Shown: positions 20,644 to 42,009 of the stretch, piece after piece
Layout of the letters: each line of letters opens with the position of its first letter
Position numbering within the stretch: the first letter of the stretch is position 1
NCBI RefSeq assembly: GCF_000975115.1
Contig: NZ_BBRE01000001.1
Location: forward strand, 248,001-312,000
DNA: 64,000 nt
Reading direction: 5' to 3'
From: Demequina oxidasica
GTDB taxonomy: Bacteria > Actinomycetota > Actinomycetes > Actinomycetales > Demequinaceae
Position numbers and translations under genes: made by a program
The notes under the pieces: model-generated
What the model was told of the DNA's origin: nothing
The model's database searches: none
Seen by the model: only the letters and a program-made list of their open reading frames with translations

Positions 20644-21945
20644 CTACGCGCGCTCGGCCTCCGGCAGGCTCCTGCCCACCACGGCCCCGGCGATGCCCAG
20701 CGCCGCGAGCAGCAGCAGCGCCCACTGGTTGCCCAGCACCGCCAACCCGGCGGTGATCGCGCCGACGGCGAGTAGCAGCACCCCCATCAGCGTGTTGGAC
20801 ACGGCCACGTATTGCGTGCGCTGGTCGCCCTCGGCGATGTCCACCACGTAGGTCTTACGGGCCAACCGCGCGCCCACGTGGACCAGGGCCAGCAGCAGGT
20901 AGGTGGCGGGCGCGAGCCAGAAGGTCTTGGCCAGGTCGCCCACCAACAGCAGGCCGAGGAACACGACGATGACAGCCGACGATGCGAGCGAGGCGCCGAT
21001 CATCAGCCGCCGGGACGACTTGTCCGCGAGCCTGCCGGACAGCTGCCCGCCCAGCAGCCCCGCGATGCCCTGCGCCATCACGAATAGACCCAGCGAGGAC
21101 AGCCCGGAGGCGCCCTGCTGGATGCCCAGGCCCACCACGAACGGGGGGCTGAGGGCCGCGACCAGCAACAGGCCACGCGCGACGACGAACCGCTGGAACA
21201 CGGAATCGTCCCGCCACAGTTCCCTCGCCTGCGAGACCCAGCCGGGCTGGTCCTCGACGGGCGTCTCGACCTCCCCGGCGGGTTCGCGAATGGTCGCGTA
21301 AATGATGGCCGCCACCACCCAGGCGAGCGCGGCGCCGCCGAGCAGCGCGGCCAACACCCCGGCCCCCAGGTTGTCGCCGCCCCAGAGCCGTAGCGCCAGG
21401 CCCAGGGTCAGGGCCACGGCGGCCGATGCGACGGTGGTCACTCCCTTGATCTGTCCTCGCTGCCCCTTAGGTACCGTGCGGCCCAGCACGTCCTTGCTCG
21501 CGATCGAGCTGAGTGAGCGGGCCAGCGCGAAGACGGCCAGTAACGCCAGCACTCCCGCTCCCGCGATCCAGCCCGATGCCGTGGCGGCTACCACTGCCAG
21601 GCCGGCTGCCGCGAAGGCCTGGCCGGCCGCGCCCAGGACCCAGACCTGCTTGCGCTCGCGCCGCGCCTGCACCCGTGGGGCCCAGGCGGCCTGCGGCAGC
21701 ATCGAACCGGACTCGCGGATGGGCACCAGGAAGGCGACGAACGCCCCGGGTGCGCCGAGTGCGTTCAAAAGCCAGGGAAGCACCGTCTTGGCGTTGACCA
21801 CCTGATCGCCAATGGACTGCAGCGTGAGGGCGCCCATCTGCCGGAGCGCGTTGCCGGGCACGTTGGGCCGAGCCTCCTCGCTCAGACTGCCGAGGTCAGA
21901 CTCGTCGCTACGTATCAGTCGCTGGTAGATCCATTGGGAGGCCAC
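20644..21945 (-). CDS. MFS transporter
   Basis: The product from GTG at 21945 is 433 residues with 10-12 hydrophobic segments and an MFS-type central loop. An ATG 69 bases upstream is in frame, but GTG is preferred because CATAAT, five of six consensus bases, is exactly six bases before it. The N-terminal sequence SDLGSLSEEARPNVPGNALR is soluble and precedes the first helix. Substrate unknown. It is the last chromosomal gene before the defence island and the octamer density falls right after it. Confidence 0.8.
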   Translation of the reverse strand: MASQWIYQRLIRSDESDLGSLSEEARPNVPGNALRQMGALTLQSIGDQVVNAKTVLPWLLNALGAPGAFVAFLVPIRESGSMLPQAAWAPRVQARRERKQVWVLGAAGQAFAAAGLAVVAATASGWIAGAGVLALLAVFALARSLSSIASKDVLGRTVPKGQRGQIKGVTTVASAAVALTLGLALRLWGGDNLGAGVLAALLGGAALAWVVAAIIYATIREPAGEVETPVEDQPGWVSQARELWRDDSVFQRFVVARGLLLVAALSPPFVVGLGIQQGASGLSSLGLFVMAQGIAGLLGGQLSGRLADKSSRRLMIGASLASSAVIVVFLGLLLVGDLAKTFWLAPATYLLLALVHVGARLARKTYVVDIAEGDQRTQYVAVSNTLMGVLLLAVGAITAGLAVLGNQWALLLLAALGIAGAVVGRSLPEAERA

Positions 21946-21957
21946 TGTTCCATTATG
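21946..21957 (-). promoter_or_regulatory. leaderless-type -10 box (CATAAT) of the MFS gene
   Basis: On the minus strand CATAAT is followed by six bases and GTG at 21945. It supports the shorter protein start. Confidence 0.5.
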
Positions 21958-22229
21958 GGCAAGGTGGCCTGGGGTATCTGTTCTGGTGGCGAGGACAGGG
22001 TTAAGAACTACCATGCGAGCTTCAAGATAAAATAGCCCAGTAGGTTATTTGCCTAGAAAGATGAATATTGACAGCGCGCAACGGTAGGACTCGTGTTGAA
22101 GAATTCCAGCTCTCGCGAAGTGCTGTCGACCACCAGGTGCAAAACGACACACCTCACGAGGCAACCAAACAGTGGGGCCGGTCAAGTTGTCACCTAACCG
22201 TTCAGCAGACCCCCGCTAGATTCTATTAA

Positions 22230-23290: not shown

Positions 23291-25954
23291 TTATGTCAGC
23301 GGGTCGGTCAAGACTGGAGGTGCTTTGCGAAGGATGTTGTCCAGCTCGACTCTTACATCTTCGGCCAGGTCAGGATCAGCAAAGATTCCTTCCAGATCAA
23401 CAGTGTCGAGCTCCTCGCTGGGGGTGAACCACAAGAAGCGCGCGTGCTTGCTCAGCAGTTCAAGCGTGACGCCGCGCGTGAACCCGACCTCCTGCAGGTT
23501 GATGTTCTTCGCGTCGCCCGAGCCATACTCGACGAGCTTCGCGACATTCACACCCGCCTTCTCAGATCCCAGCGCTTGGACGGTCAGGTCACAGTAGTTC
23601 TCGATGTAACCAATGATCTTAAACCGAAGGCCGGACTCCAAGTCACGCATGGTTTCCTCGATGATTCGGTTGATCTGCTTCGCGTCGTCTGCCCTGAACG
23701 GCTCCGTGATCAGGTAAGGCGAGACGGCGTAATCGCGATATTTCACTACGCCCAGTTTCGCGTGGTAGCGAATCGCCCGGCTTATGACGAGCACGAGTGG
23801 ATCTCCCCTGACCCAGTAGGACATGAGCGTCGCCCAATAGCGAAGGCGATCGGAATAGCCAGGCTCTTCTTTCGGGACGAGCGGATCCTTACCGCCTGAT
23901 TCCTCGACTATCCAGTTGTACGCGCGCCCGAGACGGAGTAGCACGTCTTCGAACAACTCGAAGCTCAGCTCGGTTGTATCGGACGGAACCAGAGGACCGG
24001 CCAAGCCGCTCTTTAATTCACCCCAAACCGCACTTTGGTACTTCGGCTGAATACCTGGCGACCGACGGAGTACTTCTTCTGAACCGGTGAAGCTGCTCAC
24101 CGCCTTATCAAGGAGCTTCGCCGCGTCTGGCACCTTTTCCAGGAAGAGGGAACGTAGCGGTGTCTGTTGCTTGCCGAGCACATGCAGGAGAAGTATCGAC
24201 GTGTACTGCTCCACGGTTCGCTTTGCGTCATTCGATGGTGTGCCCGGTAGTTCCTCGCCCCGGAGCACGTAGCCGATGTCCGTGAAGTCCTTCTTGGTCT
24301 TCCCAGGATTCACCAAGAAGCTCTCCGCAATAATCGGATCACCGCGCGGAATCAATTCCTTACGTGACTCGCTCCATCCGTTGGGCTCATGACGAACACA
24401 GATGACGTTTCCGGAGAAATCGTAGGTCAACCGACCCGCACGTCCAGCGAGGTTCTCGAAGTCGATCTTGCTGAATCCCGAAGGTCCATGCGTGTCGTTG
24501 AGAACAAAGATGTTCTTGGCCGGCAGGTTCACCCCCTCTAGCAGCGTGGATGTACAGACGACGTACCGCAAGGGTGAGTGAGGATCCGAGAAGCACTCCT
24601 CGACCTTCTCCCTTACTTCTTGAGGCATCTTGCCGTGGTGGAACGCCACTCCGCGCCTGAGTGTGTCCGCCAAGAAGTAGTCCTTGTGGATGTGTTCTTT
24701 AACGAACTTGATGAGTGCGTCGATCTTGGGATCGGAGATCTTCGGCAGGACCTTCGCAAGTTCCATCGCGAAGTTAGCGGACTTGGCCGCACTGTTGATG
24801 TAGACGATCGACTTTCGGGCTCCGCTGAGCGAGGCCACAAGGTCGATTGCCGTCGTTGCGGCAGGCGCAGCTTGGAGCTGTCCGTCGGTGCTGGAGGCTC
24901 CGGACAGGTAGAACTGCTTACGGTCGACAAGGTCAACGAAAAACCGCTGCTGGGCAACGGTCCGCTCGCGGACCGCAAGTGCGCCGTTTGAGGCCTTGCC
25001 GAAGAGTTCGAGGAATAGCTGCGGATTCTCAATACTCGGCGATGCGAACACTAACTTGGTTGCGAATCGACGAATCGTCTCAACGATTGCGTGGTAATAG
25101 ATCGAGGAACGAGCATCCTTCTTCGCGATCACCTTCTGCGCCTCATCGACGATCAGATAGTCGATGTCCCGCACGGGATTCGAGAGGTAGCGAAGCAAGC
25201 GCTCCGGCGTGAGCACGAAGATTGTGCGCGGGTAGGTCTTTCGAAGATAAAGCGGGAGGGATGGGAATGTGGCGACGTTGACCTCAGGCACATCTCGCAA
25301 CAGCTCTCGGAGGTCGGCGGCCGTCTGGCCGATGAGCGCTTTCGTTGGAACGAGCACGACAACGCAGTGCTGATCGAGATCCGTGCGCCGAACGATGTCG
25401 TAGATTGCGTCCTTGAGAATGAACGACTTTCCGAGAGAAGTGGGGCCCGAGAAACTGAAAAAATCCTCACCGCGCATGCGCTCGGCAATCTCAAACTGGG
25501 TGTCTGTCAACGTAGCGGTGCCGTGCTTCGTTGCCTGAGTGACCTCCTTCGCAGCACGGAGCACCCCTCGCGATAACGGAAGTGCGTAGGTAGCGTCGGT
25601 CGTACTCGACAGCGTCCGCAGGCCGGGAAAGTTGCCGAGCTCAATGAGTACCGCGGTGGCGACTGCTGTTAGTCGGCCGCTGCCACGTTCTGAGAGCCCA
25701 ACAAGCTCGTCGTACTCCCGCAGCAGCGCAATCACGTTGTAAGCAGCCTCACGGTGCGCCGGAAGCGTCGAATGGGACATGATGTCCGCGTAGCGTAGGA
25801 GGCGATCGACTCTGTCGTCCTCGATTACCGCGGAAGTCGCGCCATTGAGAAACGCTTCGGATGAAGCTGTCTCGACCACCAATAGATCGGTTGCGAAGTC
25901 TTCACCAGTGACGATCATGTCGCTGAGGACATCGGCTGCAATACGGCCCGCCAC
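23291..25954 (-). CDS. hamB: HamB-type DEAD/DEAH helicase of a Hachiman defence system
   Basis: The 887-residue protein is a superfamily 2 helicase: Walker A GPTSLGKSF with Lys176, motif II DEAQ at 270-273, motif III FASPS, a motif V-like CTSTLLEGVNLP and motif VI NLAGRAGRL. The helicase core is flanked by a ~150-residue helical N-terminal part and a ~300-residue C-terminal part typical of HamB. It begins with GTG directly after the hamA stop (TAG then GTG with no gap). In Hachiman, HamB scans DNA for damage-like phage intermediates and releases the HamA nuclease. Lower GC than the neighbouring chromosome genes fits horizontal transfer. Confidence 0.82.
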   Translation of the reverse strand: MAGRIAADVLSDMIVTGEDFATDLLVVETASSEAFLNGATSAVIEDDRVDRLLRYADIMSHSTLPAHREAAYNVIALLREYDELVGLSERGSGRLTAVATAVLIELGNFPGLRTLSSTTDATYALPLSRGVLRAAKEVTQATKHGTATLTDTQFEIAERMRGEDFFSFSGPTSLGKSFILKDAIYDIVRRTDLDQHCVVVLVPTKALIGQTAADLRELLRDVPEVNVATFPSLPLYLRKTYPRTIFVLTPERLLRYLSNPVRDIDYLIVDEAQKVIAKKDARSSIYYHAIVETIRRFATKLVFASPSIENPQLFLELFGKASNGALAVRERTVAQQRFFVDLVDRKQFYLSGASSTDGQLQAAPAATTAIDLVASLSGARKSIVYINSAAKSANFAMELAKVLPKISDPKIDALIKFVKEHIHKDYFLADTLRRGVAFHHGKMPQEVREKVEECFSDPHSPLRYVVCTSTLLEGVNLPAKNIFVLNDTHGPSGFSKIDFENLAGRAGRLTYDFSGNVICVRHEPNGWSESRKELIPRGDPIIAESFLVNPGKTKKDFTDIGYVLRGEELPGTPSNDAKRTVEQYTSILLLHVLGKQQTPLRSLFLEKVPDAAKLLDKAVSSFTGSEEVLRRSPGIQPKYQSAVWGELKSGLAGPLVPSDTTELSFELFEDVLLRLGRAYNWIVEESGGKDPLVPKEEPGYSDRLRYWATLMSYWVRGDPLVLVISRAIRYHAKLGVVKYRDYAVSPYLITEPFRADDAKQINRIIEETMRDLESGLRFKIIGYIENYCDLTVQALGSEKAGVNVAKLVEYGSGDAKNINLQEVGFTRGVTLELLSKHARFLWFTPSEELDTVDLEGIFADPDLAEDVRVELDNILRKAPPVLTDPLT

Positions 25955-26947
25955 CTACTTCGACACTCCGTGGTTCCCGAGCTGAGCAGCAAGCTCCATC
26001 CGGATTTGCGTGATCCCGTGCACTTTGTCGCCAGTTCCGCGCTTTGCAAATGGGATGGCGTACAGATGAATCGGATAGACGCCAAGACCGTGATCGGTGA
26101 CCTCTTGTCTAATCAGCTCGTGCTGGGCGGCAATCGCCTCAGTCGCTCGTTTCCGCAGCTCGGTCTCGATTTCGCCTAACTCCATGTCCTCAGTCTTCAT
26201 GTCTGTAACGTCAACCTCGTACCCGACGAAAATGCCGAATGCGTTGTGCTTCTTTGTCGCTTCGTCTCCCCCGCTGGTGGAAGGGAGTAGAATGGCCGCA
26301 AGGGCTGCGAGCTTCGCGTCGTCCAGCTCCTCTTTCAAGAGTTCGGACTGCACCAGCCACGTATCGAAGTCGAAACCCTCTTCGTGGACCTTGCCTACCG
26401 ACTTGAATGCCGCCTTGATGCCACGCTTCACGCTCGTGCCCACTCCCCCTGAGTCGCCATACATCTTCGACTCACCGAAGATCAGTTGGTATGACGAGTC
26501 GTTGGCGCGAAGGAGGTGCACACCGTCGGAGCCGTAAACGTAGTGGTCGCTGTTCGTCTTCAGCTCCATTTTCGAGAGCACCTTCGGCGCCCCCAAATGC
26601 CCCTCCAGAAGTGAGTACAGAATCACCTCGCCGCCCTCACCTGCCTTCTCATCGGGGACTCGAAACTGTGATTGAACCTTCGCGGCCACCTCCATCAAGC
26701 GACTCGGATCCTCGAGCGCCTTTTTGTAGTTCAGACGTGAAAGTACATACGGAACACTATTGTTCTGGAGTTCCCGGTAGAGGCCGACGAGGTCAAACGT
26801 TCCATTCTGCACGCGGAGCACACGCACATGAAGATTCGTTTTCTTCTGGAGAGGGACGCTGACGGTGTCGTAGAAGAGCGCATTGAACTTATCTCGGTTT
26901 GACGCGAGCAGAGATAGCGGCAGCACCGGCTCCGGCGTGTCCGTCAT
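25955..26947 (-). CDS. hamA: HamA-type DUF1837 nuclease of a Hachiman defence system
   Basis: The 330-residue protein matches DUF1837. Conserved points visible are GEGGEVIL with Glu107, SDGVHLL with Asp141 and FGESKMYG with Glu159-x-Lys161, a PD-(D/E)XK-type catalytic set. The ATG at 26947 is chosen because GGGGG lies upstream at good spacing; an in-frame GTG at 26965 is the alternative. It is the first gene of the hamA-hamB unit, abutting hamB exactly. Known for the family: HamA is a nuclease whose release by HamB degrades DNA and stops phage growth. Confidence 0.82.
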   Translation of the reverse strand: MTDTPEPVLPLSLLASNRDKFNALFYDTVSVPLQKKTNLHVRVLRVQNGTFDLVGLYRELQNNSVPYVLSRLNYKKALEDPSRLMEVAAKVQSQFRVPDEKAGEGGEVILYSLLEGHLGAPKVLSKMELKTNSDHYVYGSDGVHLLRANDSSYQLIFGESKMYGDSGGVGTSVKRGIKAAFKSVGKVHEEGFDFDTWLVQSELLKEELDDAKLAALAAILLPSTSGGDEATKKHNAFGIFVGYEVDVTDMKTEDMELGEIETELRKRATEAIAAQHELIRQEVTDHGLGVYPIHLYAIPFAKRGTGDKVHGITQIRMELAAQLGNHGVSK

Positions 26948-27502
26948 ATGGATCCCCCAGCTCACTCCGATGTCGAATACGTCCTAGGATGGCTTGGATT
27001 TCGAAGATTTGCGGTGCGGCTCGGCGGCAAGCCCTAACTTAGCGCTCCTTACGAATTCCTCTCCAACGCAATTAGGAGCGAATCATCATCATTGGGCCCG
27101 TGAACGCACCGCCCTGACTCCTGACCGTCGACCTTCAAACCGTTAGACGGTGCCGTCTCGTTCAGCATTGTTCGACGCCGGGGAAGGCACCTACGCTGGT
27201 CTGGCACCCCACAGCCCATTTTGGTCCGGGTACGCGCCGACCTGCTCGGCAATCATTTGTGCTTGCATCACCTGCAGCTCAGAACCAAATGCACTGGCGA
27301 TCATGCAATGGTTACGGTTGTGATGCCGTTGTTTCCTTTGACCCACGCTCCCACGGCCGGGACCGCTCCGCGGAACCCAGTTAGTAGCCCTGGCTAAGGC
27401 TTAGCGCCGAGCGCGATAGCCGTTCACGAAAAGGGACTGGCCTGTGGGCTTCTGCCACAATGCCTAAGAGCCCATTCCCGAACCAATGCTGAGGCGCCTT
27501 AC
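26948..27502. other. 555-base intergenic region within the defence island
   Basis: This is the longest non-coding stretch here and separates the divergent hamA and glycosylase-like genes. It contains a perfect palindrome AGACGGTGCCGTCT at 27145-27158. Short frames exist (for example 27049-27252 minus) but lack ribosome sites and protein-like character. It may hold the two promoters and a remnant of a lost gene. Confidence 0.5.
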
Positions 27503-28276
27503 ATGAACGAGTTCCCGCCGATTCCACCAACGGTCCTCGAGGCACTAAAATATCGGGGGACCACTTACCGCTACGTGAACTTTAATACGACAGCGTGGCA
27601 ATCAATGGTGGACCGCCTTGGTCTAGATGGACTCAATCTGAAATTTCTCGGCGGCAAAATCAACCGCCAGGAGATGGTTGATCTAGTCACTCGCTCGCTC
27701 GACGGCGATGGTTTACGCGTACCTGCAAACCCGACATATGGGGTCGCGGCTGCATTTGTCCTGACGATGGTGTGGGGGCACGGCCCCTCGAACTACGGCC
27801 CATACCGAACAAGCAACATCCTGTGTGTCGAGGACGACTCCGCATATGCACCAAGCATCGGGGTTTTGCAGAACCTAGCCCGGTCAATCGATCTCGCTCG
27901 GGTTGACCATGCCGCGGAAGGGAGCTTCAGTTACCTGAACTACGGACCTGGAAAATGCAAGAACCTGGGTCCGGCCTTTTTCACAGAATGGCTCTATGCG
28001 GTCTCGTCGAAGGGCGATGTTTCTGCTGAGGCCGCTCTCCCAATCCTCGACGAAGTCACACAGCAATACGTGAACACGGTCGCAGGAGACAACTTCATCA
28101 AGTGGGGATATAAAGCCGGCTACGTAAAGTATGTCGATCTGCTGAATGAGTGGTCGGAAGCCATGGAAGGCTCAACTGTCGTCGATGTGGAAGAAGCAAT
28201 TTTCGATGTCGCTCAGGGCCACTGGCAGCCCGCACAGGCACCCGAGCGTGCCATCGACAAAGTCCTGCAACGTTAG
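27503..28276 (+). CDS. OGG-fold DNA glycosylase-like protein in the defence island
   Basis: The 257-residue protein has an N-terminal helical half, then WGHGPSNYGPYRTSNIL near residues 91-108, SYLNYGPGKCKNLGPAFFTEWLYAV near residues 145-170, and a C-terminal helical part. The YRT-N and LGPAFFT-K/E-LY elements are characteristic of short actinobacterial proteins described as having an 8-oxoguanine glycosylase (OGG) fold. The Lys in PGKCKNLG could be the catalytic lysine. Location between hamA and a modification cluster suggests recognition of phage base modifications or a nearby methyl mark, but that is inference. A GAGG ribosome site precedes the ATG. Confidence 0.58.
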   Translation: MNEFPPIPPTVLEALKYRGTTYRYVNFNTTAWQSMVDRLGLDGLNLKFLGGKINRQEMVDLVTRSLDGDGLRVPANPTYGVAAAFVLTMVWGHGPSNYGPYRTSNILCVEDDSAYAPSIGVLQNLARSIDLARVDHAAEGSFSYLNYGPGKCKNLGPAFFTEWLYAVSSKGDVSAEAALPILDEVTQQYVNTVAGDNFIKWGYKAGYVKYVDLLNEWSEAMEGSTVVDVEEAIFDVAQGHWQPAQAPERAIDKVLQR

Positions 28277-28447
28277 ATACTGAGTGCGTAAACGACCGCC
28301 TAAATGTGAGACAGCCAATTAGATCAAGCGGCTGATCGAGCGCCCGCGCCCCATGTCACCCTCCCCCAATAGGATTGAAGACAGCCAACCACTGATGTCC
28401 ACAGGACGCCGCACAGCCGCGGTATCCACGCTGAGGAGTTTCACCAA

Positions 28448-29317
28448 ATGAACGCCACCACCAACGCCCGCATGGCGTCCCTCATCTGGTTCATCGCGGA
28501 TGACGTGCTCCGCGACCTCTACGTGCGCGGCAAGTACCGCGACGTCATCCTCCCCATGGTGGTCCTGCGCCGCCTCGACGCCGTCCTCGTTCCCACCAAA
28601 GCCCAAGTCCTGGAAGCAAAGACGCACCTCGACAACGCTGGCATCACCAACCAGGACGCCCCTCTCCGACAGGCCGCGCAACAGGACTTCTACAACACCA
28701 GCCAGTTCACGCTCAAGGACCTCCGCTCGGCCACCAGCCAAGCACAGCTCCGCCAAGACTTCGAGGCGTACCTCGACGGCTTCTCCCCGAACGTCCAGGA
28801 GATCCTCGAGAACTTCGAGTTCCGCAATCAGATCCCCCGGCTCACCAAGGCAGACGCGCTGGGCACCCTCATCGAGAAGTTCCTCGACCCTTCAATAGAC
28901 CTCTCCCCCGACGCCCTCGACAATCACGGCATGGGCAGCGTCTTCGAGGAGCTGGTGCGCAAGTTCAACGAGGCCAACAATGAGGAAGCCGGCGAGCACT
29001 GGACGCCTCGCGACGTCGTCAAGCTCATGACCCGCCTCATGTTCGCACCCTTCGCTGACACCGTCCCCGAGGGCACCTACCTGCTGTATGACGGAGCTAT
29101 GGGCACCGGCGGAATGCTCACCGTCGCCGAGGACACCCTCAACGAGCTCACCGGAGACAAGAAGCTCTCCACCCACCTCTACGGCCAGGAGGTCAATGCC
29201 GAGCTGTACGCCATCGCCCAGCGCGCGCGTGTTCCGCAGTGGGGTCGCGTTGACACCGAGGATTTCCAAGAGGTGCGAAAAGCACCTGGAATCTCACTAA
29301 TCCGAGCAGGGAAGTAG
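28448..29317 (+). pseudogene. hsdM: truncated type I restriction methyltransferase hsdM
   Basis: The 289 residues match HsdM from the N terminus: the helical N12 domain (about 10-150), NEEAGEHWTPRDVVKLM, motif I as YDGAMGTGGML near residue 215, and the start of the next strand (YGQEVNAELYAIAQ). A complete HsdM is about 500 residues and would continue with the catalytic NPPF motif, which is absent. After about base 29247 an unrelated 22-residue tail leads to a stop eight bases before the helicase gene. Codon use is chromosome-like (C-ending) up to that break and different after it. Probably inactive as a methyltransferase, but its good ribosome site (GAGGAG) and position could still make it the first translated gene of the operon. 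Confidence 0.75.
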
Positions 29318-29323
29318 ACGCCC

Positions 29324-32300
29324 ATGACAACGTCCGAGCAATTCATCGTCGACAACACCAACGAGGACTGGAAAGCTCTCCAGTACGTACGGGAGTGGTG
29401 CGACATTAGCTCGGCGATCGACATCGCGACTGGGCACTTCGAAATTGGCGCTTTTCTCGCCCTTGACGGAGCGTGGCAAAAAGTCGACAAGATCCGCCTG
29501 CTTATCGGCGGGGAAACCAGCCGTACGACCGCAGACGCTATTGCTACGGCACTAGATTCGTCGATTGCCGTTGAGCGCCAAAAGGGCGATACCTTCCTGA
29601 CAGGCATCGAGGCCGTCGTCGATGCCATCCGAACTGGCAAGATCGAGATCCGCGTTTACTCACAGAAGAAGTTCCACGCGAAGGCTTACATCACACACAG
29701 CAAACTGAAGGTGGTGGGCTCAGCTGCTCTCGTGGGTTCATCCAACTTCACTCGCCCTGGCCTGACTCAGAACGTTGAACTCAATGTGAGGTTTCAAGGC
29801 CCAGAAATTGCGGAACTTCAGGACTGGTACGAGCAGCATTGGGACGGCGCAGCCCCAGTTGATGAGGACCTCCTCGCGGTCTTGGAGCACAACGCCCGCG
29901 AATTCACCCCCTTCGAGGTTTATGCGAAGGCGCTACACGCGTTGACTGCGAACGTCGACCCAACTGACAAAACCTGGGAAGAGTCCGAGTCGGTGATTTA
30001 CCCAATGTTGGCGCCGTACCAGCAAGAGGGTTTCCATGCTCTTATCGAGATGTCTCGTCGCTGGAATGGTGGGTTCCTGACCGATGGCGTTGGGCTCGGT
30101 AAGACGTTCGTGGGCCTCATGTTGACCGAGTACTATGCAATCCGGCACCGCAAGAACGTCTTGATCATGGCAACAAAAACGGGGCAGGATGCGGTCTGGA
30201 ACCCTGAGCTCAGAGAGAGATTGCCGCAGCTCTTCGGCCAATTCTCCAACGTACTCGTGCGTGCCCACACAGATTTGTCAACCGTCAAGGGTCAGGAGGA
30301 GATTGAACATCTAGCAAAGCGCGCCGACATCGTGATCATCGACGAGGCACACAACTTCAGAAATCACGGCTCTCACAAGACGGAGGAAAACCCCTGGGGC
30401 TCGCGCTGGTGGCGCATGCAGGACATCTGCAAAGGGAAGACCGTCTTTCTCTTGACGGCTACGCCGATCAATAACTCACTGTTTGACCTCGTACACCAGA
30501 CAGAACTGTTCACCGGCGTCAATGCGGACGACCACTTCGCGAGCATCGGCGTCAGCAGCCTGCGCAAGTACATCGTTGGCCTGGAGAAACCCTTCAAGAG
30601 CGCGATTCCGGACCACGCGGCTATCGCCTCGTTGATGGCAGAGGACAAGCTCTTCCGGTCAATTATCCACCAGAACAGCCGACGCTATGCGGTCGAAGGG
30701 TCGAAGGTCGCAGGAGGAGCAGAGGTGGTGTTCCCCGAGACTCAAGTCCCCAAGGTCGTGCCCTATTCATTCGGGGTTCTGTATGCGCCGCTCTTTACCG
30801 AACTCCAGTCGGCCTTCAGCCGAAAAACGCCACTCTTCGTGCTGCCCATGTACTACCCCCTCGCGTTCTCGACTGACAAGGCCATCGACACTGTCGCGGA
30901 GAACCGGCAACGCCAAGTGGTCGCGTTGATCCGCACAACGTTCCTCAAGCGTTTCGAATCCAGTCTGGCGGCCTTCGCGGGTTCGTGTCTCGATCTGTCT
31001 GCGAAAGTGCTCCATTGGCTCGACGTCAACACCAAGGTTGACCCCGATCAGGAGGCCCGGCTCGACGTGTGGCGCTCCGCGAACGGGCCGACGCTCAAGT
31101 CGATTCACGATCGCTATCGCTCAACCCTCTTAGAGGTTTGGCATGACGAGGATCTGACCGAGGAAGAACTGGATGAACTCGAGTACAACCTCGTGGGCGG
31201 TGACTACAAGCTCGCGGAAATGATTGACGCCGCGTTTGATGACCTTGACCAGCTCAAGCGCTTCATGGACCTGATCCTCCAAGGCGCTGGAATCGACGAC
31301 AAGTACCTCCGCTTGCGCGACCTACTCAGCGGTGCCGGCAAGATCGAGCAGAAGTCGCTCGACAAGAGCGTCTTCACGCCAGAGTTCCGGGATGAGAAGG
31401 TCATCATCTTCACAGAATTCGCCGACACGGCCCGTTACCTCGAAGAGAGGCTGAAGGCGGACGGCCTAGAGCAGGTCGATCGCATTGATGGCACCCGTGG
31501 CAACGACCGGTACTCGATGATCAAACGGTTCGCGCCTTTCTACAACAAGGTCAGCGCGGAGGAACGCAAGAGCCTCGCCCCGATCCGTGTGTTGGTCTCG
31601 ACCGACGTCCTGAGTGAAGGCGTGAACCTCCAGGACGGGACTCTTCTCGTCAACTACGACATCCACTGGAATCCGGTGCGGCTCATGCAGCGGATTGGCC
31701 GTGTCGATCGCCGGATGAACCCCACAATCGAGGCTGAACTCGTCAGGGAGAAGCCCTCGGCAAGGAAGTCGCGCGGCCACATCCAGGTCCGAAACTTTCT
31801 TCCGCCCGCTGAGATCGAGACCCTCCTCGCCCTGTACTCCCGTGTTCAGAGCAAGACCTTGATGATCTCCAGCACGCTTGGCATCCCTGGCGGGAAGCTC
31901 ATCGACGAGTCAGACATGTATGACGACGTCAAGGTATTCCAGGCCTTCAAGGACGAGTACGTCGGAGATATCGCACCCATCGAGGAACTTCGGCTTAAGT
32001 GGCTCGAACTCACTAAAGACAACCCTGGCCTCGACGAACTTGTAGAGCGCCTCCCTGATGGCATCTCGGTGGCCAAGGCAGGCAAGCCGGCCGGCGTGTT
32101 CATCTGCCGTCGAGTTCCCGTTCTCACCAAAGTGAATGACGATGATCTCGAGCCCGCTTGGGTCATCGATCCGGGAGCTGTCGAGTGGGTTCTCCGCAGA
32201 CCCGATGGCGTCGAGCGCGAACTCCTTAAGATTGAGGCTGCCGTCGAGGCTTTGCCTGAGTCGCCTGCTGTGAAGTTCAGCGATCGAGAGGAAGTCAGCG

Positions 32301-32410
32301 GCACATTGCGCCAACTTGAGCGGGACGAGACCAAGCGGATGCGCAAGGAAACTCAGCTGCCACTTGATGCCCCCAACCCCACGACAATTTGTTGGATGGA
32401 GGTCCGATGA
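29324..32410 (+). CDS. PLD nuclease-SNF2 helicase fusion, first gene of the candidate defence operon
   Basis: The 1028-residue protein has an N-terminal phospholipase D-like domain with one HKD set: H118-x-K120 followed by GSSNFTR. A SNF2-type helicase follows: Walker A DGVGLGKTF with Lys260, DEAH at 340-343, TATP in motif III, STDVLSEGVNLQD and the arginine finger motif QRIGRVDRRMNP. A C-terminal extension of about 170 residues ends in an ATGA overlap with the methyltransferase gene. It should translocate on DNA and cut with the PLD domain; single-HKD proteins act as dimers. In DISARM the SNF2 (DrmD) and PLD (DrmC) functions are separate proteins, so the fusion here is distinctive. Confidence 0.85.
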   Translation: MTTSEQFIVDNTNEDWKALQYVREWCDISSAIDIATGHFEIGAFLALDGAWQKVDKIRLLIGGETSRTTADAIATALDSSIAVERQKGDTFLTGIEAVVDAIRTGKIEIRVYSQKKFHAKAYITHSKLKVVGSAALVGSSNFTRPGLTQNVELNVRFQGPEIAELQDWYEQHWDGAAPVDEDLLAVLEHNAREFTPFEVYAKALHALTANVDPTDKTWEESESVIYPMLAPYQQEGFHALIEMSRRWNGGFLTDGVGLGKTFVGLMLTEYYAIRHRKNVLIMATKTGQDAVWNPELRERLPQLFGQFSNVLVRAHTDLSTVKGQEEIEHLAKRADIVIIDEAHNFRNHGSHKTEENPWGSRWWRMQDICKGKTVFLLTATPINNSLFDLVHQTELFTGVNADDHFASIGVSSLRKYIVGLEKPFKSAIPDHAAIASLMAEDKLFRSIIHQNSRRYAVEGSKVAGGAEVVFPETQVPKVVPYSFGVLYAPLFTELQSAFSRKTPLFVLPMYYPLAFSTDKAIDTVAENRQRQVVALIRTTFLKRFESSLAAFAGSCLDLSAKVLHWLDVNTKVDPDQEARLDVWRSANGPTLKSIHDRYRSTLLEVWHDEDLTEEELDELEYNLVGGDYKLAEMIDAAFDDLDQLKRFMDLILQGAGIDDKYLRLRDLLSGAGKIEQKSLDKSVFTPEFRDEKVIIFTEFADTARYLEERLKADGLEQVDRIDGTRGNDRYSMIKRFAPFYNKVSAEERKSLAPIRVLVSTDVLSEGVNLQDGTLLVNYDIHWNPVRLMQRIGRVDRRMNPTIEAELVREKPSARKSRGHIQVRNFLPPAEIETLLALYSRVQSKTLMISSTLGIPGGKLIDESDMYDDVKVFQAFKDEYVGDIAPIEELRLKWLELTKDNPGLDELVERLPDGISVAKAGKPAGVFICRRVPVLTKVNDDDLEPAWVIDPGAVEWVLRRPDGVERELLKIEAAVEALPESPAVKFSDREEVSGTLRQLERDETKRMRKETQLPLDAPNPTTICWMEVR

Positions 32411-35400
32411 GCGTCGTGGAAGATCAACTCCGCCAGTTGCTCATGGCCGCCCCCCGGTCGGCTGACCAGCTGCTCACCCTGTTGCTCGACGGCCTCGATT
32501 GGCCAATTACCGACGGGCTCACGTGGGATGACCTCCAGCTTGAATGGGAGCCGGAGGAACTCCATCTTGACCCCGAGAAGGTCGCGAAGCTCAATCACAT
32601 TTCACAGCTGCCACAACTGACCACGAATCAAACCTTCGGCGTCTGGGTGCTGGAGTTCGACGGAGGCAGGCTTCCGATCGGCGCAATCCGCCGTGTGGTG
32701 CAGCGACTGGTGAGGAACGAGCGAGCCCGCAAGGGCAGCGGACGCCATGCTCAATGGGCGCTCGGCGATCTCCTGTTCTTCTGCCTATCGGAAGGGCAGG
32801 AAAATCTACTCCACGTTGTCAACTTCCGTGAGAAAGACGGGAAGCGACTCCTCAACGTGATGTCGTGGAGCGACAATCCGACCAAGACCAGGCTCGACCT
32901 GCTTGTACAACGCGGCGTGCCTGACCTCTTTTGGCAAACGGCCGCTGGCCCTAAGATCGTCCTCAGCTCTGACCTCGGGAGTGGTTTCCATGGCTACCGC
33001 CAGGGGATCAAATCGGCAGCTACACTCTCGCGGCGGATGGCCGAGGTCGCGCAGGATGTCCGCGACGAGATCCAAGCCCTCTACGATGTCGAGACGGCAG
33101 GCGGGCCGATTCGAACCCTCTTCAACGAAGTGCGCGCCCAACTGCTGAGCAACCTACAGCCCGATGGCTTTGCAGACGTCTATGCGCAGACGATGGTTTA
33201 TGGACTGTTGACAGCCCGCATTGCCCACCCAGAGGAATTTAAGGCTGCGAGGTCGCTGACGGCGCTCAAATTCGACAACGAGTTTTTGGATGCCATTTAC
33301 GCACGCTTCCGCGACGACTCGGATAGTGTGATCGACGTCGACGAGCTCGGCCTTAACGATCTGGCCGAGGAACTCGCCGCCACGGACGTCGATGAACTCC
33401 TGGCCGACTTCGGAGCCGACAACCAGCGTGACGACCCGGTGGTGTATTTCTACGAGGAATTCCTCGCGCAGTACGACCCTGAGCAGCGCAAGAACCTCGG
33501 GGCCTTCTACACACCACTCCCCGTGGTCCGCTACATCGTGAAGACTGTCGACGATGCCCTCAGGTCGTTCGGGCTTCCCCTTGGTGTCGCGGATTCGACC
33601 ACATGGGCGCAGTATATTACAACCCGTCCCGAGATAGACGTTCCCAAACTGGCCAGACCCGAAGACGCGGTGGTCTCGATGTTCGACCCGGCCAACGGCA
33701 CCGGCACGTTCCTAGTGGAGTGGATGAGGCAGGCGCGGCGCAACGGCGGGAGCATCGGCGAGGCATCTGCCCTCGCGCATTCATCGGCCTGTGAAATTTC
33801 ACTGGCCTCGTACGCGGTTAGCCACCTCAAGGTCTCACTCGAAGTCGCTGAAGGGCTTCGCGAAAAGTCTCGGCTCCCTATCTATCTCGGCGACACCCTC
33901 GGCAAGCGACATCCCCAAGTGATTGAGGAGCTTGCCGACCCGATCAGTATCGAAGGAGCACATGCCGACGAGGTCAAGTTCGAATGGAACCACAACGTCC
34001 TCATTGGCAACCCGCCGTACGACCGAGTCAAGAGCTCCGGCACTGGTGGCTTCATAACCGCGATGCAGGATGGCTCCAAACGATCGCTCTTCGACGACAT
34101 CTACGGGCCAGCGGTTCAAAACACCAATTTCGCGCACGTCGCTAGTCTCTACAACCTTTATGTCTATTTCTGGCGATTTGCCATTTGGAAGGCATTCGAG
34201 GAGAACACAGGGCCCGCAGTCGTGTCCATGATCACCGCGTCATCCTGGCTCGAAGGCCCTGGTTTCCTTGGCCTCCGGCGACTCGCTCGCGAAGTCGCCG
34301 ACGAAATCATAGTGGTCGACCTGCATGGAAACAACAAGGGCGCACGGAAGGACGAAAACGTTTTCGACATTGAGTCACCAGTCGCAATCGTTACTCTCGT
34401 ACGACACGGCAGAGGCGATCGCACAGTCCCAGCTTCCGTACGCTACGCGAGTTGCCGGGGTGGTCGCGCCGAAAAACTCGCGCTGCTAACCAGCGTCGCC
34501 ACTAACCAGGAGGTCCTCGAATTCACCGATGCCAGCACAGAGTGGTACGCGCCGCTGATTCCCACGTCAAGCGGCACGGACTGGAAGTCTTATCCCGCAC
34601 TCGTTGACCTCCTCCCTTGGCAGCAACCGGGCTGCAAATTCGGAAGAACATGGCCGTTGTCACCAGCGCCTCAGGTTCTCGCGTTGCGCTGGAAGCGACT
34701 GATCTCATCGGAACTTTCCGACGACCGAGCCACATGCTTTGTTACTCCCTCGGCTGGTAGGAACATCTACACGAAAGTGGGCGCTCTAGATAGGATTGCC
34801 GACCTGAAGTCGGGAACGCCGAGCCCGCCGGTAGTGAGATACGGGTATCGCTCGTTCGACCGGCAGTGGGCTTTTCAAGACCCGCGTATGGCCAAGACCG
34901 AGAGTCCGTCGCTTTGGTGGGCTCAGAGTGACCGACAGGTCATGATTACGACGTCAACCCGACAACTTGGTCTCGGCCCGGCGGTTGTCGCGACGGCGTA
35001 TGTTCCCGATCTTGACTACTTCAATGGACGCGGCGGCAAGGACGTGATCCCTCTCTACCGTGATGCCAAGGGGACACCAAATGCGGACCCGGCGCTTCTC
35101 AAACTTGTGACACAGCACCACCTACGCATGGACTCTGGTGCCAAAGGCATCACGGGAGAGCGTTTGTTCGCCTATGTCACGGGTGTCCTCGCGGGCGCCG
35201 ACTACACCGAGCGTTTCCACAGTGAGCTTGATACCGCTGGAACGCGCATACCGCTCACGGCAGATCCAGAGCGCTTCGATAACATGGCAACCCATGGCGA
35301 GAGGTTGATCTGGCTCCAGACCTTCGGCGAGCGCTTCGGGGACGGCACATTCACTACCAACGGCGTGGCGTGGAGTTCGACCCCGACGGAGCTTCCGTCA

Positions 35401-35835
35401 TCTAAGGCGGATGTTGTCTTCGACTCTGAAACCGCGACTCTTCGCGTGGCCGACGGTGTCCTCACTGGAATACCCGAGGCCGTGTGGACATTTGAAGTGA
35501 GCGGCATGAAGGTAATCCCGAAATGGTTGGGCTATCGCATGGTGAAGCCTGCAGGAAAAGCAGGATCAAGTAGATCGCCGTTGGATAAGATCCGTCCGAC
35601 TGCTTGGGCCCCTGAATGGAGCACCGAACTAGTTGAGGTAGTGAGCGCCATCAAGCAGACTTTGGCACTCATTCCTGACGGTGTCACCTTGCTTGAGGAC
35701 ATCATCTCGGGTCCGCTCATCTCTGCAAATGAACTGCCACCCGTTCCGCTCGCCCTTCGTCAGCCCCCGAAAGTCCGTGCGAGCATCGGCGAAGAAAACG
35801 TCCTCTTCGGCGATGACGGGGAAGGAGCCTCCTAA
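32407..35835 (+). CDS. type ISP-like N6-adenine DNA methyltransferase with target recognition region
   Basis: The 1142-residue protein has an N-terminal helical part (~1-330), the N6 methyltransferase core with motif I MFDPANGTGTF near residue 425, motif IV NPPY at 535-538, and a long C-terminal region with the features of type ISP specificity domains (FNGRGGKDVIPLYRD, then RLFAYVTGVLAGADYTERF). No nuclease domain is visible at the N terminus, unlike LlaBIII-type single-chain enzymes; the helicase and nuclease are in the preceding gene. It probably marks host DNA at an asymmetric site. The ATG overlaps the helicase stop (ATGA); its own stop overlaps the next start (TAATG). Confidence 0.85.
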   Translation: MSVVEDQLRQLLMAAPRSADQLLTLLLDGLDWPITDGLTWDDLQLEWEPEELHLDPEKVAKLNHISQLPQLTTNQTFGVWVLEFDGGRLPIGAIRRVVQRLVRNERARKGSGRHAQWALGDLLFFCLSEGQENLLHVVNFREKDGKRLLNVMSWSDNPTKTRLDLLVQRGVPDLFWQTAAGPKIVLSSDLGSGFHGYRQGIKSAATLSRRMAEVAQDVRDEIQALYDVETAGGPIRTLFNEVRAQLLSNLQPDGFADVYAQTMVYGLLTARIAHPEEFKAARSLTALKFDNEFLDAIYARFRDDSDSVIDVDELGLNDLAEELAATDVDELLADFGADNQRDDPVVYFYEEFLAQYDPEQRKNLGAFYTPLPVVRYIVKTVDDALRSFGLPLGVADSTTWAQYITTRPEIDVPKLARPEDAVVSMFDPANGTGTFLVEWMRQARRNGGSIGEASALAHSSACEISLASYAVSHLKVSLEVAEGLREKSRLPIYLGDTLGKRHPQVIEELADPISIEGAHADEVKFEWNHNVLIGNPPYDRVKSSGTGGFITAMQDGSKRSLFDDIYGPAVQNTNFAHVASLYNLYVYFWRFAIWKAFEENTGPAVVSMITASSWLEGPGFLGLRRLAREVADEIIVVDLHGNNKGARKDENVFDIESPVAIVTLVRHGRGDRTVPASVRYASCRGGRAEKLALLTSVATNQEVLEFTDASTEWYAPLIPTSSGTDWKSYPALVDLLPWQQPGCKFGRTWPLSPAPQVLALRWKRLISSELSDDRATCFVTPSAGRNIYTKVGALDRIADLKSGTPSPPVVRYGYRSFDRQWAFQDPRMAKTESPSLWWAQSDRQVMITTSTRQLGLGPAVVATAYVPDLDYFNGRGGKDVIPLYRDAKGTPNADPALLKLVTQHHLRMDSGAKGITGERLFAYVTGVLAGADYTERFHSELDTAGTRIPLTADPERFDNMATHGERLIWLQTFGERFGDGTFTTNGVAWSSTPTELPSSKADVVFDSETATLRVADGVLTGIPEAVWTFEVSGMKVIPKWLGYRMVKPAGKAGSSRSPLDKIRPTAWAPEWSTELVEVVSAIKQTLALIPDGVTLLEDIISGPLISANELPPVPLALRQPPKVRASIGEENVLFGDDGEGAS

Positions 35836-36947
35836 TGGCCTTCAAACCCAACCTCTCAGTGAAAGAGGGACTCGACCACCTTGCGAAACGCCTCGACCCG
35901 ATCATCGCCGCACGATTGGCCAGCGACCTCGGAGATCACCCTTGGACCGTCGTCTTGGACATCCTTGACCAGAAGAAGGGCTTCGCCAACGGCTACAAGT
36001 ACTGGACCTACGACCTGCAAGCCCAACTCCGGATGCTCACAGAGAGGCTTGGTGACTTCGGGTACCCGTTTGACGATCACGAGCGGACCGTCAGTACCAT
36101 CGGCAACGAGCTGCGCATTGTTCGCAAGCAAATGGCCCACATGTACGAGTTCTCAGTGGACGACGCGTTCAGAGCGAACGACTTCTGCGTACGGCTCTTG
36201 GAACACTTTGGTGACCCCGAAGGAACGGACGAAGCGAAACGGGTTCGCCACGAAGCCCTTGCGGCTTTAGCCGAACAGGAAGGTGTAACCGAACAGGTAG
36301 CGGAGGACGCGAGCGTTGCACTCGGTCTGCCGGCGATCGTTGAGAAGGCCGAGGCTCCTCGTCCGAAAGCGATAGAATCGAAAGACGAGCCGGTGACGCC
36401 CGATCCGGACGTTCTTATGGGCGAACCAAGCGCGATCGGTGACGGGCGGCTGGAGTTCTCGCCGTGGAGCGTCGTCCGTATTGGAAGCATCGACGTGCTG
36501 GACGAACTCCCTAAGAAGGCCGCCAAGGAGAAGGTGCGAGCGATTGCGGTCGAGATCGCGACGTTCGAAGGCCCCATTCACATCGACCGTCTCGTCGACA
36601 AGATCGTCCAGTCTTTCGGCCTCCAGCGTGTCCATGCTCGACGTCAGGGAAAGATTGCATATCAGGTTCGGCAGGCGGGTCTCTTCGTCGATGAGGACAA
36701 GTTTGTGTGGCCTCGCGAGCTCGACGCCTCTACATGGGCGGAGTTCCGGCCGAACGACAGCGACGCCGATCGCCCTTTCGTCTACATCAGCCCGATCGAA
36801 ATCGCGAACGCGGCGCGATTCATTCGCGCCAAGCGCGCTGGCGTCACTGACGACGAACTTGACGTCGCTGTCCTCCAGACCTTTGGCCGCAAGCGACGGA
36901 CCAAGCAGTTGGCTGCGCATTTGGCTAGGGCGATGGAGCAACTGTGA
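35835..36947 (+). CDS. Swt1-family HEPN protein with C-terminal DUF3320 domain
   Basis: The 370-residue protein has a Swt1-type HEPN region (about 8-135) with the RNase motif R97-x4-H102 inside RIVRKQMAHMYEF, a Pro/Glu-rich linker (about 155-200) and a C-terminal DUF3320-like winged domain (EGPIHIDRLVDKIVQSFGLQ, about residues 247-330). HEPN proteins with an intact R-x4-6-H often cut RNA in abortive infection. The start overlaps the stop of the methyltransferase by one base, and the stop overlaps the TIR gene (GTGA). Tight coupling to a modification enzyme suggests that this is an effector or a checkpoint of the same system. Confidence 0.82.
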   Translation: MAFKPNLSVKEGLDHLAKRLDPIIAARLASDLGDHPWTVVLDILDQKKGFANGYKYWTYDLQAQLRMLTERLGDFGYPFDDHERTVSTIGNELRIVRKQMAHMYEFSVDDAFRANDFCVRLLEHFGDPEGTDEAKRVRHEALAALAEQEGVTEQVAEDASVALGLPAIVEKAEAPRPKAIESKDEPVTPDPDVLMGEPSAIGDGRLEFSPWSVVRIGSIDVLDELPKKAAKEKVRAIAVEIATFEGPIHIDRLVDKIVQSFGLQRVHARRQGKIAYQVRQAGLFVDEDKFVWPRELDASTWAEFRPNDSDADRPFVYISPIEIANAARFIRAKRAGVTDDELDVAVLQTFGRKRRTKQLAAHLARAMEQL

Positions 36948-37810
36948 GTGCCGAGTCGGACCTCCGTCGGTATCGCGGTGAGGCCGGTAAGACGCGCGTG
37001 AAGATTGGGCGGGCCTCCACGACCGTCGCAGACAAACGCAAGAAGGCGGCCACGGCGAGCATTGCAGCGGGGAAGACGAAGTCCGAGGCAACGCGGCGAT
37101 CCAAGTTGCGCGAGGCCGAGTCTGCCGAGCGCGACGCCAATAGTGCGGAGAAGACGCGGGCAGACCTAGAGAAGAAACTCGCCGATATTGAGAAGAAGCT
37201 CGCGACCGCGCTGAGCCGGTACGAAAAGGACCAGCGAACCAGTCAAGAGAAGGCGCTAGATGCAATCCGTCGCCAAAGCGCCGCCGCGGCAAGTCAGTTT
37301 CGACCGTCTGTGCACTCGGGCGAAGCCGCATTGGGCCGTGGCGTTCAGGACCGCGAACTCGGCGAAACTGCCAACGGCGATCGCCTCCCGGCAGATCCGA
37401 ACTACGACGTGTTCTTGTCTCACGCGAGCGAGGATAAAGACGGAATCGCGAGGCCGCCTAAGGATGCGCTTGAGGCCAGAGGACTCTCGGTTTGGTTTGA
37501 CGAGATCAAAATCAAACTTGGCCAAAGCATCCGACAAGAAATCGAAAGAGGCATCGACCAGGCCCGATTCGGGGTTGTAATCCTTTCGCCGGACTTTTTC
37601 GCGAAGCAGTGGACTCAGGCTGAGCTCGATGCTTTGTTCAGCAAGAAGATGGCCACTGACGTAAACCTCATTCTCCCGATCTGGCATCGGACCACGAAGG
37701 ACGAGGTCCTTGCTCAGTCACCGTTAGTAGCTGGCATCCTCGCGCTCAACTCATCGCTGATGACCATCGACGAAATGGCCGACGCGATCAAAGATGTTGT
37801 GCGCGGCTAG
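36944..37810 (+). CDS. TIR domain protein with N-terminal coiled coil
   Basis: The 288-residue protein starts with GTG overlapping the Swt1-like stop. Residues ~1-110 form a Lys/Glu/Ala coiled coil. A TIR domain begins at Y154 (YDVFLSHASEDKD), continues with GLSVWFDEIKIKLGQSIRQ and the helix containing the putative NADase Glu227 (QAELDALFSKK), and ends at the C terminus. Bacterial TIR proteins with this Glu make signals from NAD+ or deplete it. The RPP sequence after the first helix replaces the commoner RPLAEAL pattern. Last gene of the operon, likely the suicide effector or alarm output. Confidence 0.85.
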   Translation: MSAESDLRRYRGEAGKTRVKIGRASTTVADKRKKAATASIAAGKTKSEATRRSKLREAESAERDANSAEKTRADLEKKLADIEKKLATALSRYEKDQRTSQEKALDAIRRQSAAAASQFRPSVHSGEAALGRGVQDRELGETANGDRLPADPNYDVFLSHASEDKDGIARPPKDALEARGLSVWFDEIKIKLGQSIRQEIERGIDQARFGVVILSPDFFAKQWTQAELDALFSKKMATDVNLILPIWHRTTKDEVLAQSPLVAGILALNSSLMTIDEMADAIKDVVRG

Positions 37811-37853
37811 CGTCCTCCCTCAGAATTGCGCTCGCGTGCTTCGTGGTTCCGAG

Positions 37854-39704
37854 TTAGCGCGGCCAGACCACACACAGTTGGCGCGCGAGGCGCTCGCCTC
37901 GTTCGATGATTGCGTCGTCCGTCCAGTCATCGGGGTGCTGATCAAGCACCTCGCGGGTGATGATTAGGCCAGAGCACTTCGCCAAGAGGGACTTCTTGCC
38001 AAGGCCAGAGTGATCGCCCTGGCGCGACACCGCGTCCACAACCTCGTCGTCTCTCCATGGACGGTTAGATAAGGAGGCGTTGAGACGGCGGTTCAACAAT
38101 GTGAGATTGCCCAGGTAGTTCACCCGTCGGTCCCTAGCTGCAGCGGCAATTGGGTCGAGCGGCGGATCCGTGTTCCAGAACTGTGCCCACGATCGAGGCA
38201 TGATGTGTTCTAGGTCCAGCCCCGATGGGATGCCGGTGGAGTCGTGCATCGAGGTCCTGATCGAGTGCTCAATTCCTTCAAGTACTACGCGCAGTCGGCT
38301 CTGGCGGACGTTTCCGTATCGATTCACCGTTGGCAACGCCGAGACCATAGCTTCGTCATCGGGCCAAACCCGTGAGTCTGCCACTTGCGCCGCGAGGAAC
38401 TCTCGAATGACGCCGCCGGCCTGATCGACCGGTACGCCGTCGAGCGCGGCAAGCATGCTCACCATGACCTGATTCACGTTCCTCATGGTCATCTTCAGCA
38501 TGGTGCGCCGGACCACCCAACTTTCGACCGCCGCGAGACCAATCTCGACCTGGCGCTCGGGCACCTGGTGGTTCGCAGACCGCAGCCACAAGAGAAGCGG
38601 CGTGGTCGCTGCCAACTCGAGCGACTCAATAACGCGGTGGTAGAACGTGCCGGCAGCGCTGGCTTTGTCCATCTCTGCCAATTTGCGGAACGTGTCAGCG
38701 TCGCGAAGCAACTCCTGCAAGAAGTCCTGCGCGGCTCCAAATGCCTTGAACGACTCGGCGGCGTGGAGTCGAAACTCGCGGAAAACCTGATCTGACTGGA
38801 CCTCCTGGCGAGTGCGCATTATGAGCCAGTACTGCAAGAAGATGTCGATCCGTGACCGGAATAGTCGGCCTTGTTTGATCTCATCGCGCCACCAAGCGTC
38901 GTCAAACTCAAGCCACAATGAGGTCGCCCAGCGCTCCGTATTCGCGCCGATCTCTTCACCCCATTGAAACACCTGGTTCTTGATGAGGTCAGCGGCAAGC
39001 AACGGGGTACCGCGGTCGTTCAGCGTTTCAAAGATCAACTGGTCATCGTCGGTATGGTCCAGCGCGATTGCAACAAGGACGAGACGCTCAAGCAAGGAGT
39101 CTGCGAGTACGATCGCCCTGTCGTCGAGGCCCTCATGGACGTCGGTATCCGGGTCGCCATCTGCCAAGAGCCACGAGCGCGCCTGGGCTCGGAAGTACTC
39201 GTGTGCCCTCAGGACTTGGCTCTCTATCCCTGGAGCGGAATTGCTCGTCATGGCGGCTTCGAAGCCCGCGCGATCGACTCGCGATGGACAGAGCTTGAGC
39301 GCGTCGAGCGAATCGAACTTGCTCCCATCGGCGACCGCCGCCGCCAATCGCTCGTACTCGGAGGGTCGTCCCCGATCCCTAAGTTCCGTTGCCGCCGCGT
39401 GCATAAACAACTGCAACGTCGCAATGCGTTGCTGACCGTCGATCACGGAGTACCGGACTCCGCCACCTGGCACTGCAGCCAAGCTCTTCGTGACGACAGC
39501 GCCGAGGTAATGCGTGCCGATGGCGGGTGCGTTTCGGCCCGTCCGAGCAACCTCAAGCGCACGATGACAAAGCGTCTCAACGTCAGCCCACAGTGGTTCC
39601 CACTGCTCGTCCTGAGACCACACATAGGGCCGTTGAAAGACGGGGATGTCATAAGTCTGTCCGTCGACGAAGAGCTTACCGAGTGTCGTGGCGCCTGCTT
39701 GCAT
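37854..39704 (-). CDS. GmrSD-like restriction protein (DUF262 plus DUF1524)
   Basis: The 616-residue single-chain protein has the DUF262 ParB-like NTPase domain with DIPVFQRPYVW (about 18-28) and the DGQQRIATL motif near residue 90, a long helical middle, and a C-terminal DUF1524 HNH nuclease domain (GLDLEHIMPRSW, then NYLGNLTLLNRRLNASLSNRPW). Fused GmrS-GmrD proteins of this kind restrict phage DNA with modified cytosines (type IV) or act in phosphorothioate systems. It converges on the TIR gene with 43 bases between stops and has its own promoter side facing a small membrane protein. Confidence 0.87.
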   Translation of the reverse strand: MQAGATTLGKLFVDGQTYDIPVFQRPYVWSQDEQWEPLWADVETLCHRALEVARTGRNAPAIGTHYLGAVVTKSLAAVPGGGVRYSVIDGQQRIATLQLFMHAAATELRDRGRPSEYERLAAAVADGSKFDSLDALKLCPSRVDRAGFEAAMTSNSAPGIESQVLRAHEYFRAQARSWLLADGDPDTDVHEGLDDRAIVLADSLLERLVLVAIALDHTDDDQLIFETLNDRGTPLLAADLIKNQVFQWGEEIGANTERWATSLWLEFDDAWWRDEIKQGRLFRSRIDIFLQYWLIMRTRQEVQSDQVFREFRLHAAESFKAFGAAQDFLQELLRDADTFRKLAEMDKASAAGTFYHRVIESLELAATTPLLLWLRSANHQVPERQVEIGLAAVESWVVRRTMLKMTMRNVNQVMVSMLAALDGVPVDQAGGVIREFLAAQVADSRVWPDDEAMVSALPTVNRYGNVRQSRLRVVLEGIEHSIRTSMHDSTGIPSGLDLEHIMPRSWAQFWNTDPPLDPIAAAARDRRVNYLGNLTLLNRRLNASLSNRPWRDDEVVDAVSRQGDHSGLGKKSLLAKCSGLIITREVLDQHPDDWTDDAIIERGERLARQLCVVWPR

Positions 39705-39889
39705 GTTCGTAGCGTGTCAGAGATGCGGGAGAAATGCGATGCGGCGTAGTCTGCGGAACTCGACCACGGCAGGCATGAGCTCGTCATTGGGCTCGCAATC
39801 TGAATTTGGTCTCCGCTTCATGAGAAGAGCCTCGCGAGGCCCTTGTAGAAGTACTGTTATCTTCGTAGCCGACCATTTTGAGGGAAATT

Positions 39890-40300: not shown

Positions 40301-40349
40301 TCAGGCGAACCATCGCTACACGTCTACCAAGCTCAGCGGATTCCAACCC

Positions 40350-40482: not shown

Positions 40483-40499
40483 CCGCATCGCCGCGTCCT

Positions 40500-41921: not shown

Positions 41922-42009
41922 GTCTCACGTCCTCCCCGACCCGCTCTATTGGTGGGTGACAGCACCCATCCTGGCAGGGATGCGGCAAGCATCACGCCAC
42001 TACCGACCG

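Follow-up and report, generated by a model that had tools for sequence, protein, structure and literature searches.

The open reading frame (ORF) at 28448-29317 of the window (the whole 64,000-nucleotide stretch of DNA that was analysed) is very probably a dead remnant of a type I hsdM-hsdS-hsdR locus, the rest of which was replaced by another operon at a defence hotspot. The case is ordinary turnover at such a hotspot, unusually clean to read: the turnover is caught at base resolution, with the previous tenant, the exact edge of the swap, and a sister genome that carries the old tenant. An annotation pipeline that labels a stump of this kind "HsdM" may thereby record a type I system that does not exist.

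The hsdM stump and its break point

The stump, the joint behind it, and the likely ribosome site in front of it are as follows:
28433-28438, plus strand: GAGGAG, likely ribosome-binding site of hsdM, read from sequence; unchanged in the same-genus genome G003
28448-29218, plus strand: hsdM stump, comprising the first 257 of 649 codons; HsdM_N complete, N6 methylase domain cut after its first third
29219-29317, plus strand: orphan joint, 32 in-frame codons and the stop TAG (29315-29317); neither its DNA nor its peptide has a convincing relative

The ORF encodes 289 aa, with the first 257 codons belonging to HsdM and the following 32 being orphan codons. Pfam searches found HsdM_N (PF12161) complete (residues 10-145, positions 2-135 of 135, E=5.8e-22) and N6_Mtase partial (residues 159-258, positions 3-94 of 311, E=9.6e-16), and the best PADLOC model was the type I methyltransferase MTase_I (PDLC03029, E=1.1e-95, positions 2-253 of 661). 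Since the catalytic NPPY is residue 298 in the HsdM of G003 and the HsdM part here ends at residue 257, the stump ends before the catalytic motif, as had been predicted. The gene was originally described as decapitated, which is the wrong way round; it was the C-terminal part that was lost. Hence, among the hallmarks of a functional type I HsdM, the HsdM_N helical domain is present, the complete N6 methylase domain with a catalytic NPP[FYW] is absent, and the locus has no cognate hsdS and hsdR. We infer that the stump makes no working methyltransferase, given that it has only part of the methylase fold and no NPPY.

The break could be placed precisely. Over its 771 coding bases the stump is identical to the G003 gene at 92.3% of DNA and 96.9% of protein positions, with no identity past 29218, and the window segment 28183-29218 aligned with G003 at 88% over 1,038 bases, again ending at 29218. 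The recombination point, whose mapping had been proposed, was therefore placed after base 29218, that is, after codon 257. The original prediction correctly had HsdM similarity starting at 28448 but let it run to about 29247; likewise, its unrelated tail is real but consists of 32 codons (29219-29314) rather than 22 residues, the ORF ends at 29317, and the helicase ATG (29324) follows the stop after 6 bases rather than eight. The predicted chromosome-like codon use was confirmed: relative adaptiveness was 0.828 for the stump (z +2.6 against 43 reference genes of the same genome), compared with 0.586-0.632 for the operon genes (z -0.9 to -1.7); the tail scored 0.508, on 32 codons only.

The 105-bp joint, taken from the break at 29218 to the base before the helicase ATG, yielded no origin. 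The tail peptide had no Pfam match, and in tblastn searches of the fetched loci and 396 genomes the best places inspected were unrelated proteins or frames. Searches of the joint against plasmids (as peptide and DNA), phages (DNA), and 392 genomes (DNA) returned only short, chance-type matches of about 17-45 bases. A supposed likeness of the tail to a GHKL-ATPase segment was dropped when searches gave it no support. Within the joint, 29271-29287 forms a perfect inverted repeat of 6 bp around a GAAAA loop. This motif, allowing up to 1 mismatch, was absent from 43 other genomes of the genus, while exact matches occurred in 5 viral contigs. Its reading as an operator or terminator was rejected, as the predicted fold of 29219-29330 was no better than those of shuffled sequences (z -0.21). 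The reading frame of the stump crosses the joint without interruption and ends shortly before the helicase, an arrangement that is suggestive only.

Intact type I loci and the variable site

This HsdM was detected at E<=1e-60 in 3 of the 47 family genomes, namely, the window's own genome, G003 (96%), and G025 (85%). The reverse strand of the G003 locus L011 carries hsdM (649 aa), hsdS (477 aa), and hsdR (981 aa), together with further genes and a DUF2252 gene; Pfam identified HsdM_N, a near-complete N6_Mtase (3-283 of 311), Methylase_S, and HSDR_N with SWI2_SNF2 in these proteins. In G025, hsdM, an ORF in the place of hsdS without a Pfam match, and hsdR stand between the same MFS and DUF2252 genes, with hsdM and hsdR confirmed by Pfam. 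The comparison with relatives having an intact locus, which had been suggested as a check, thus found the intact orthologue at the same site in both genomes, as expected for a replacement remnant. In the window itself, tblastn with the rest of the G003 HsdM and with HsdS and HsdR gave no match at E<=0.1. With intact sets at the site in both relatives and no remnant in the window, the prediction that the rest of hsdM and hsdS/hsdR had been replaced by the new block holds. The swapped segment, 29219-40470, measures 11,252 bases where G003 has 8,896.

Elsewhere in the same genome, HsdR had only matches of 26-27% identity, on contig C5. This contig contains a second type I system (L141, 6045-13238), distinct in kind from the lost one, with two tandem hsdM-like ORFs that are both full-length, an hsdS-like ORF, and hsdR.

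The site is bounded by two conserved flanks:
20644-22014, minus strand: MFS transporter, left flank of the hotspot; 90% DNA identity in G003; an orthologue is present in 16 of the 44 genus genomes, counting the window's own
40471-42810, no strand assigned: right edge, where collinearity with G003 resumes (blastn, 89%); includes the DUF2252 gene at 40500-41921, minus strand

We take the left flank to be an MFS gene from our own reading of the ORF, and the right one is presumably a DUF2252 gene; the DUF2252 family occurs in 20 of the 44 genus genomes, own included. Both genes (DUF2252 as an orthologue of >=70% identity) were found in seven genus genomes: G000, G001, G002, G003, G016, G025, and G029. 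In all seven they lie on one contig in the same relative order, roughly 11-45 kb apart, and the contents between them differ in every one. By blastn, the window shared both flanks and little else with the stretches from G001, G002, G016, and G029. Eight hotspot proteins tried against these four genomes found just two relatives, one OGG-like (38%) and one GmrSD-like (32%), both in G002. The site between the MFS and DUF2252 genes (window 20644-41921) is, on comparison of these genomes, a variable defence hotspot.

The OGG-like gene (window 27503-28276) precedes hsdM. In G003 only its C-terminal stump is left (L011, reverse strand, about 5871-5964), in front of hsdM and behind an unrelated 625-aa ORF, which makes it a second gene broken at the hotspot, from the other side. 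The hotspot further contains a HamA and HamB (Hachiman) pair at 23291-26965 on the minus strand, and a GmrSD-type protein adjoins the operon at 37854-39704, also on the minus strand; GmrSD-like matches were likewise obtained close to the helicase in L029 and L030. In each of two genomes (G025:C21:18375-19750 and G011:C1:2282343-2283721) the DUF2252-like gene was matched in two separate frames.

The incoming operon and the possible role of the stump

The operon behind the joint comprises four genes, preceded by a possible ribosome site:
29309-29314, plus strand: GGGAAG, possible ribosome-binding site of the helicase, within the last codons of the stump ORF (from sequence)
29324-32410, plus strand: PLD (HKD)-SNF2 helicase, 1,028 aa, first operon gene; Pfam PLDc_2, Helicase_C, ResIII, SNF2-rel_dom
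32404-35835, plus strand: type ISP/IIG-like adenine methyltransferase with a target-recognition domain; Type_ISP_C E=7.9e-67, PADLOC REase_MTase_IIG; alternative start TTG at 32389
35835-36947, plus strand: HEPN (Swt1-like) and DUF3320 protein, by Pfam; relatives in 6 of 80 helicase loci
36944-37810, plus strand: TIR-domain protein, TIR_2 E=4e-21; overlaps the HEPN gene by 4 bases

A set of 80 helicase loci was drawn from a species-representative genome collection with the helicase as the query, and 20 of them also had the methyltransferase. Among these loci were eight close relatives (76-83% helicase identity) in which helicase and methyltransferase adjoin without exception, indicating that this pair is the core of the operon. 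A HEPN relative was present in six of the eight, in one of them (L029) upstream of the helicase; a relative of the TIR gene was found in none, so that TIR is particular to the window's own genome among those compared. The pairing of a PLD-SNF2 helicase with an ISP-like methyltransferase is conserved in actinobacteria (L013-L018, L029, and L030) and recurs in other phyla at about 40% identity, with HEPN as a frequent and TIR as a rare addition. No helicase match was found in plasmids at E<=1e-100, and the 28 loci in viral contigs comprised 27 at 25-33% identity and one short piece at 64%. HsdM relatives were found in 133 plasmid records, the best at 70% identity.

A 289-aa protein that works as a short subunit, for example as an HsdM_N-type dimerisation or DNA-binding partner of the helicase or methyltransferase, or as a methyltransferase decoy, would agree with the low dN/dS relative to G003, the intact ORF with its strong codon bias, and the complete HsdM_N domain. 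Such a subunit is nevertheless very improbable, for the cut falls inside the methylase fold, positions fixed in all relatives have changed, and the short form is not conserved with the operon. The conservation of a short HsdM before this operon in distant species, named in the original prediction as the finding that would count against a remnant, was looked for and was absent: tblastn at E<=1e-5 detected the stump before the helicase in none of the 80 loci, nor was it present in the close relative G094. The sequence available on the upstream side exceeded 3 kb in 63 of the 80 loci and was at least 3 kb in 18 of the 20 methyltransferase-bearing ones. At E<=1e-60, this HsdM occurred in 12 of the 396 genomes of the order, and the 11 genes other than the window's were all open frames of 658-866 aa. 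Together, the 80 loci without the stump and the 11 full-length relatives indicate a remnant rather than a conserved subunit. An assembly artefact joining two loci is extremely unlikely; the layout rests on one genome of the species, but the contig that contains the junction in its interior is 1.5 Mb long, and collinearity with G003 and other hotspot genomes extends over both outer flanks.

The cut was probably recent, because the divergence between the stump and G003 (dN 0.017, dS 0.338) implies that most of it arose in a live gene. Constraint on the stump appears nearly as strong as on a live gene, which would reflect either a recent cut or some remaining constraint. Codon changes polarised with G025 as the outgroup gave 12 silent and 4 replacing changes in the window against 16 and 0 in G003, with 24 not assignable; the difference (one-sided Fisher about 0.05, worked by hand) is suggestive only. 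Compared with 11 relatives, five residues are private to the stump (F15, H60, A200, F202, and L253): position 253 is T in all 11, position 202 is I or V in all 11, and position 200 is acidic in 9. Two residues, both mild, are private to G003. The private residues and codon changes lean, without proof, toward relaxed constraint in the stump.

The region in front of hsdM contains one candidate promoter element:
28370-28375, plus strand: TAGGAT, candidate -10 box of the former hsdM promoter, at -78 relative to the hsdM ATG

This hexamer is the only TANNNT in 28277-28447 and also stands at -78 in G003. Identity to G003 was 93% at 28390-28449, compared with 47-53% at 28270-28329, indicating that the region just before hsdM, including its ribosome site, has been preserved. 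A sigma-70 scan found no site at 28370 or in the joint; its one match was at 28254-28281. The joint contains no TANNNT, an absence that is not significant alone, since such a lack is expected in 54% of shuffles. For nine helicase relatives, DNA similarity sets in at the helicase start codon or slightly ahead of it. Five of the nine (L015, L017, L018, L029, and G094 [L010]) have TA[CG]A[CG]T 37-41 bases ahead of the helicase start, amid unconserved DNA, and this box is a candidate native helicase promoter. In L014 boxes occur only farther upstream (-64 and -96), and L013, L016, and L030 have no TANNNT box within 105 bases of the helicase start.

On this evidence, a takeover of the hsdM promoter by the operon is plausible and the likeliest reading of the layout, with a chance somewhat better than even. 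A resident type I hsdM-hsdS-hsdR locus very probably stood at the chromosomal defence hotspot until recombination cut hsdM after codon 257 and the PLD-helicase/ISP-like methyltransferase/HEPN/TIR operon replaced the rest of hsdM, hsdS, and hsdR, with its start codon almost at the joint; the swap of 29219-40470 may have taken one event or several. The stump would have survived chiefly as a 5' leader, supplying the helicase operon with a promoter and a ribosome site, and a stop codon only 6 bases ahead of the helicase start would allow coupled translation; this role of the stump is, on balance, modestly favoured. Slightly less than even is the chance of promoter capture by gene-breaking, in which an operon without the -10-like box of its relatives took the promoter and ribosome site of a resident restriction-modification gene, with its translation coupled to that of the 289-codon stump. 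If that were true, the OGG-like gene, cut from the 5' side in G003, would be a second hotspot gene broken by swapping. The locus offers a testable case of a newcomer operon living on its predecessor's promoter.

The stump may instead be an inert scar, a plain remnant without a role, with the operon using its own promoter in the joint or elsewhere. This account, possible though less probable than the takeover, is consistent with the slight decay of the stump and with the open helicase genes of the three relatives lacking a TANNNT box. It fits less well with a joint that has no candidate -10 and through which the stump ORF runs open nearly to the helicase ATG, and no terminator-like site was found in 28250-29450.

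Relation to known systems

Type ISP restriction enzymes join nuclease, helicase, methyltransferase, and TRD in a single chain. The operon methyltransferase shares with them the Type_ISP_C recognition domain, whereas the operon helicase has its own gene and bears a PLD domain at the N terminus. With type I HsdM, the locus has in common stump residues 1-257, the upstream region, the ribosome site, and the chromosomal place of an hsdMSR operon; it differs in having lost everything from codon 258 on (NPPY and the rest of the methylase domain) as well as hsdS and hsdR. Among the titles and abstract openings searched, no description of a truncated hsdM leading another defence operon was found.

The BREX-related "Type-2 BR" or Hma-type systems (PMC12839542) likewise carry an N-terminal HKD (PLD) on an SNF2-like helicase beside an adenine methyltransferase. 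The present operon differs in that Pfam detected no DUF499 ATPase among its four genes, and its methyltransferase is of the ISP/IIG kind and is followed by HEPN and TIR genes. Finally, the defence-island hotspots of the E. coli pan-genome (PMC10121019) resemble this site in combining conserved flanks, here the MFS and DUF2252 genes, with swapped defence contents; unlike them, one swap boundary here lies inside a gene, and the stump frame runs into the leader of the newcomer.
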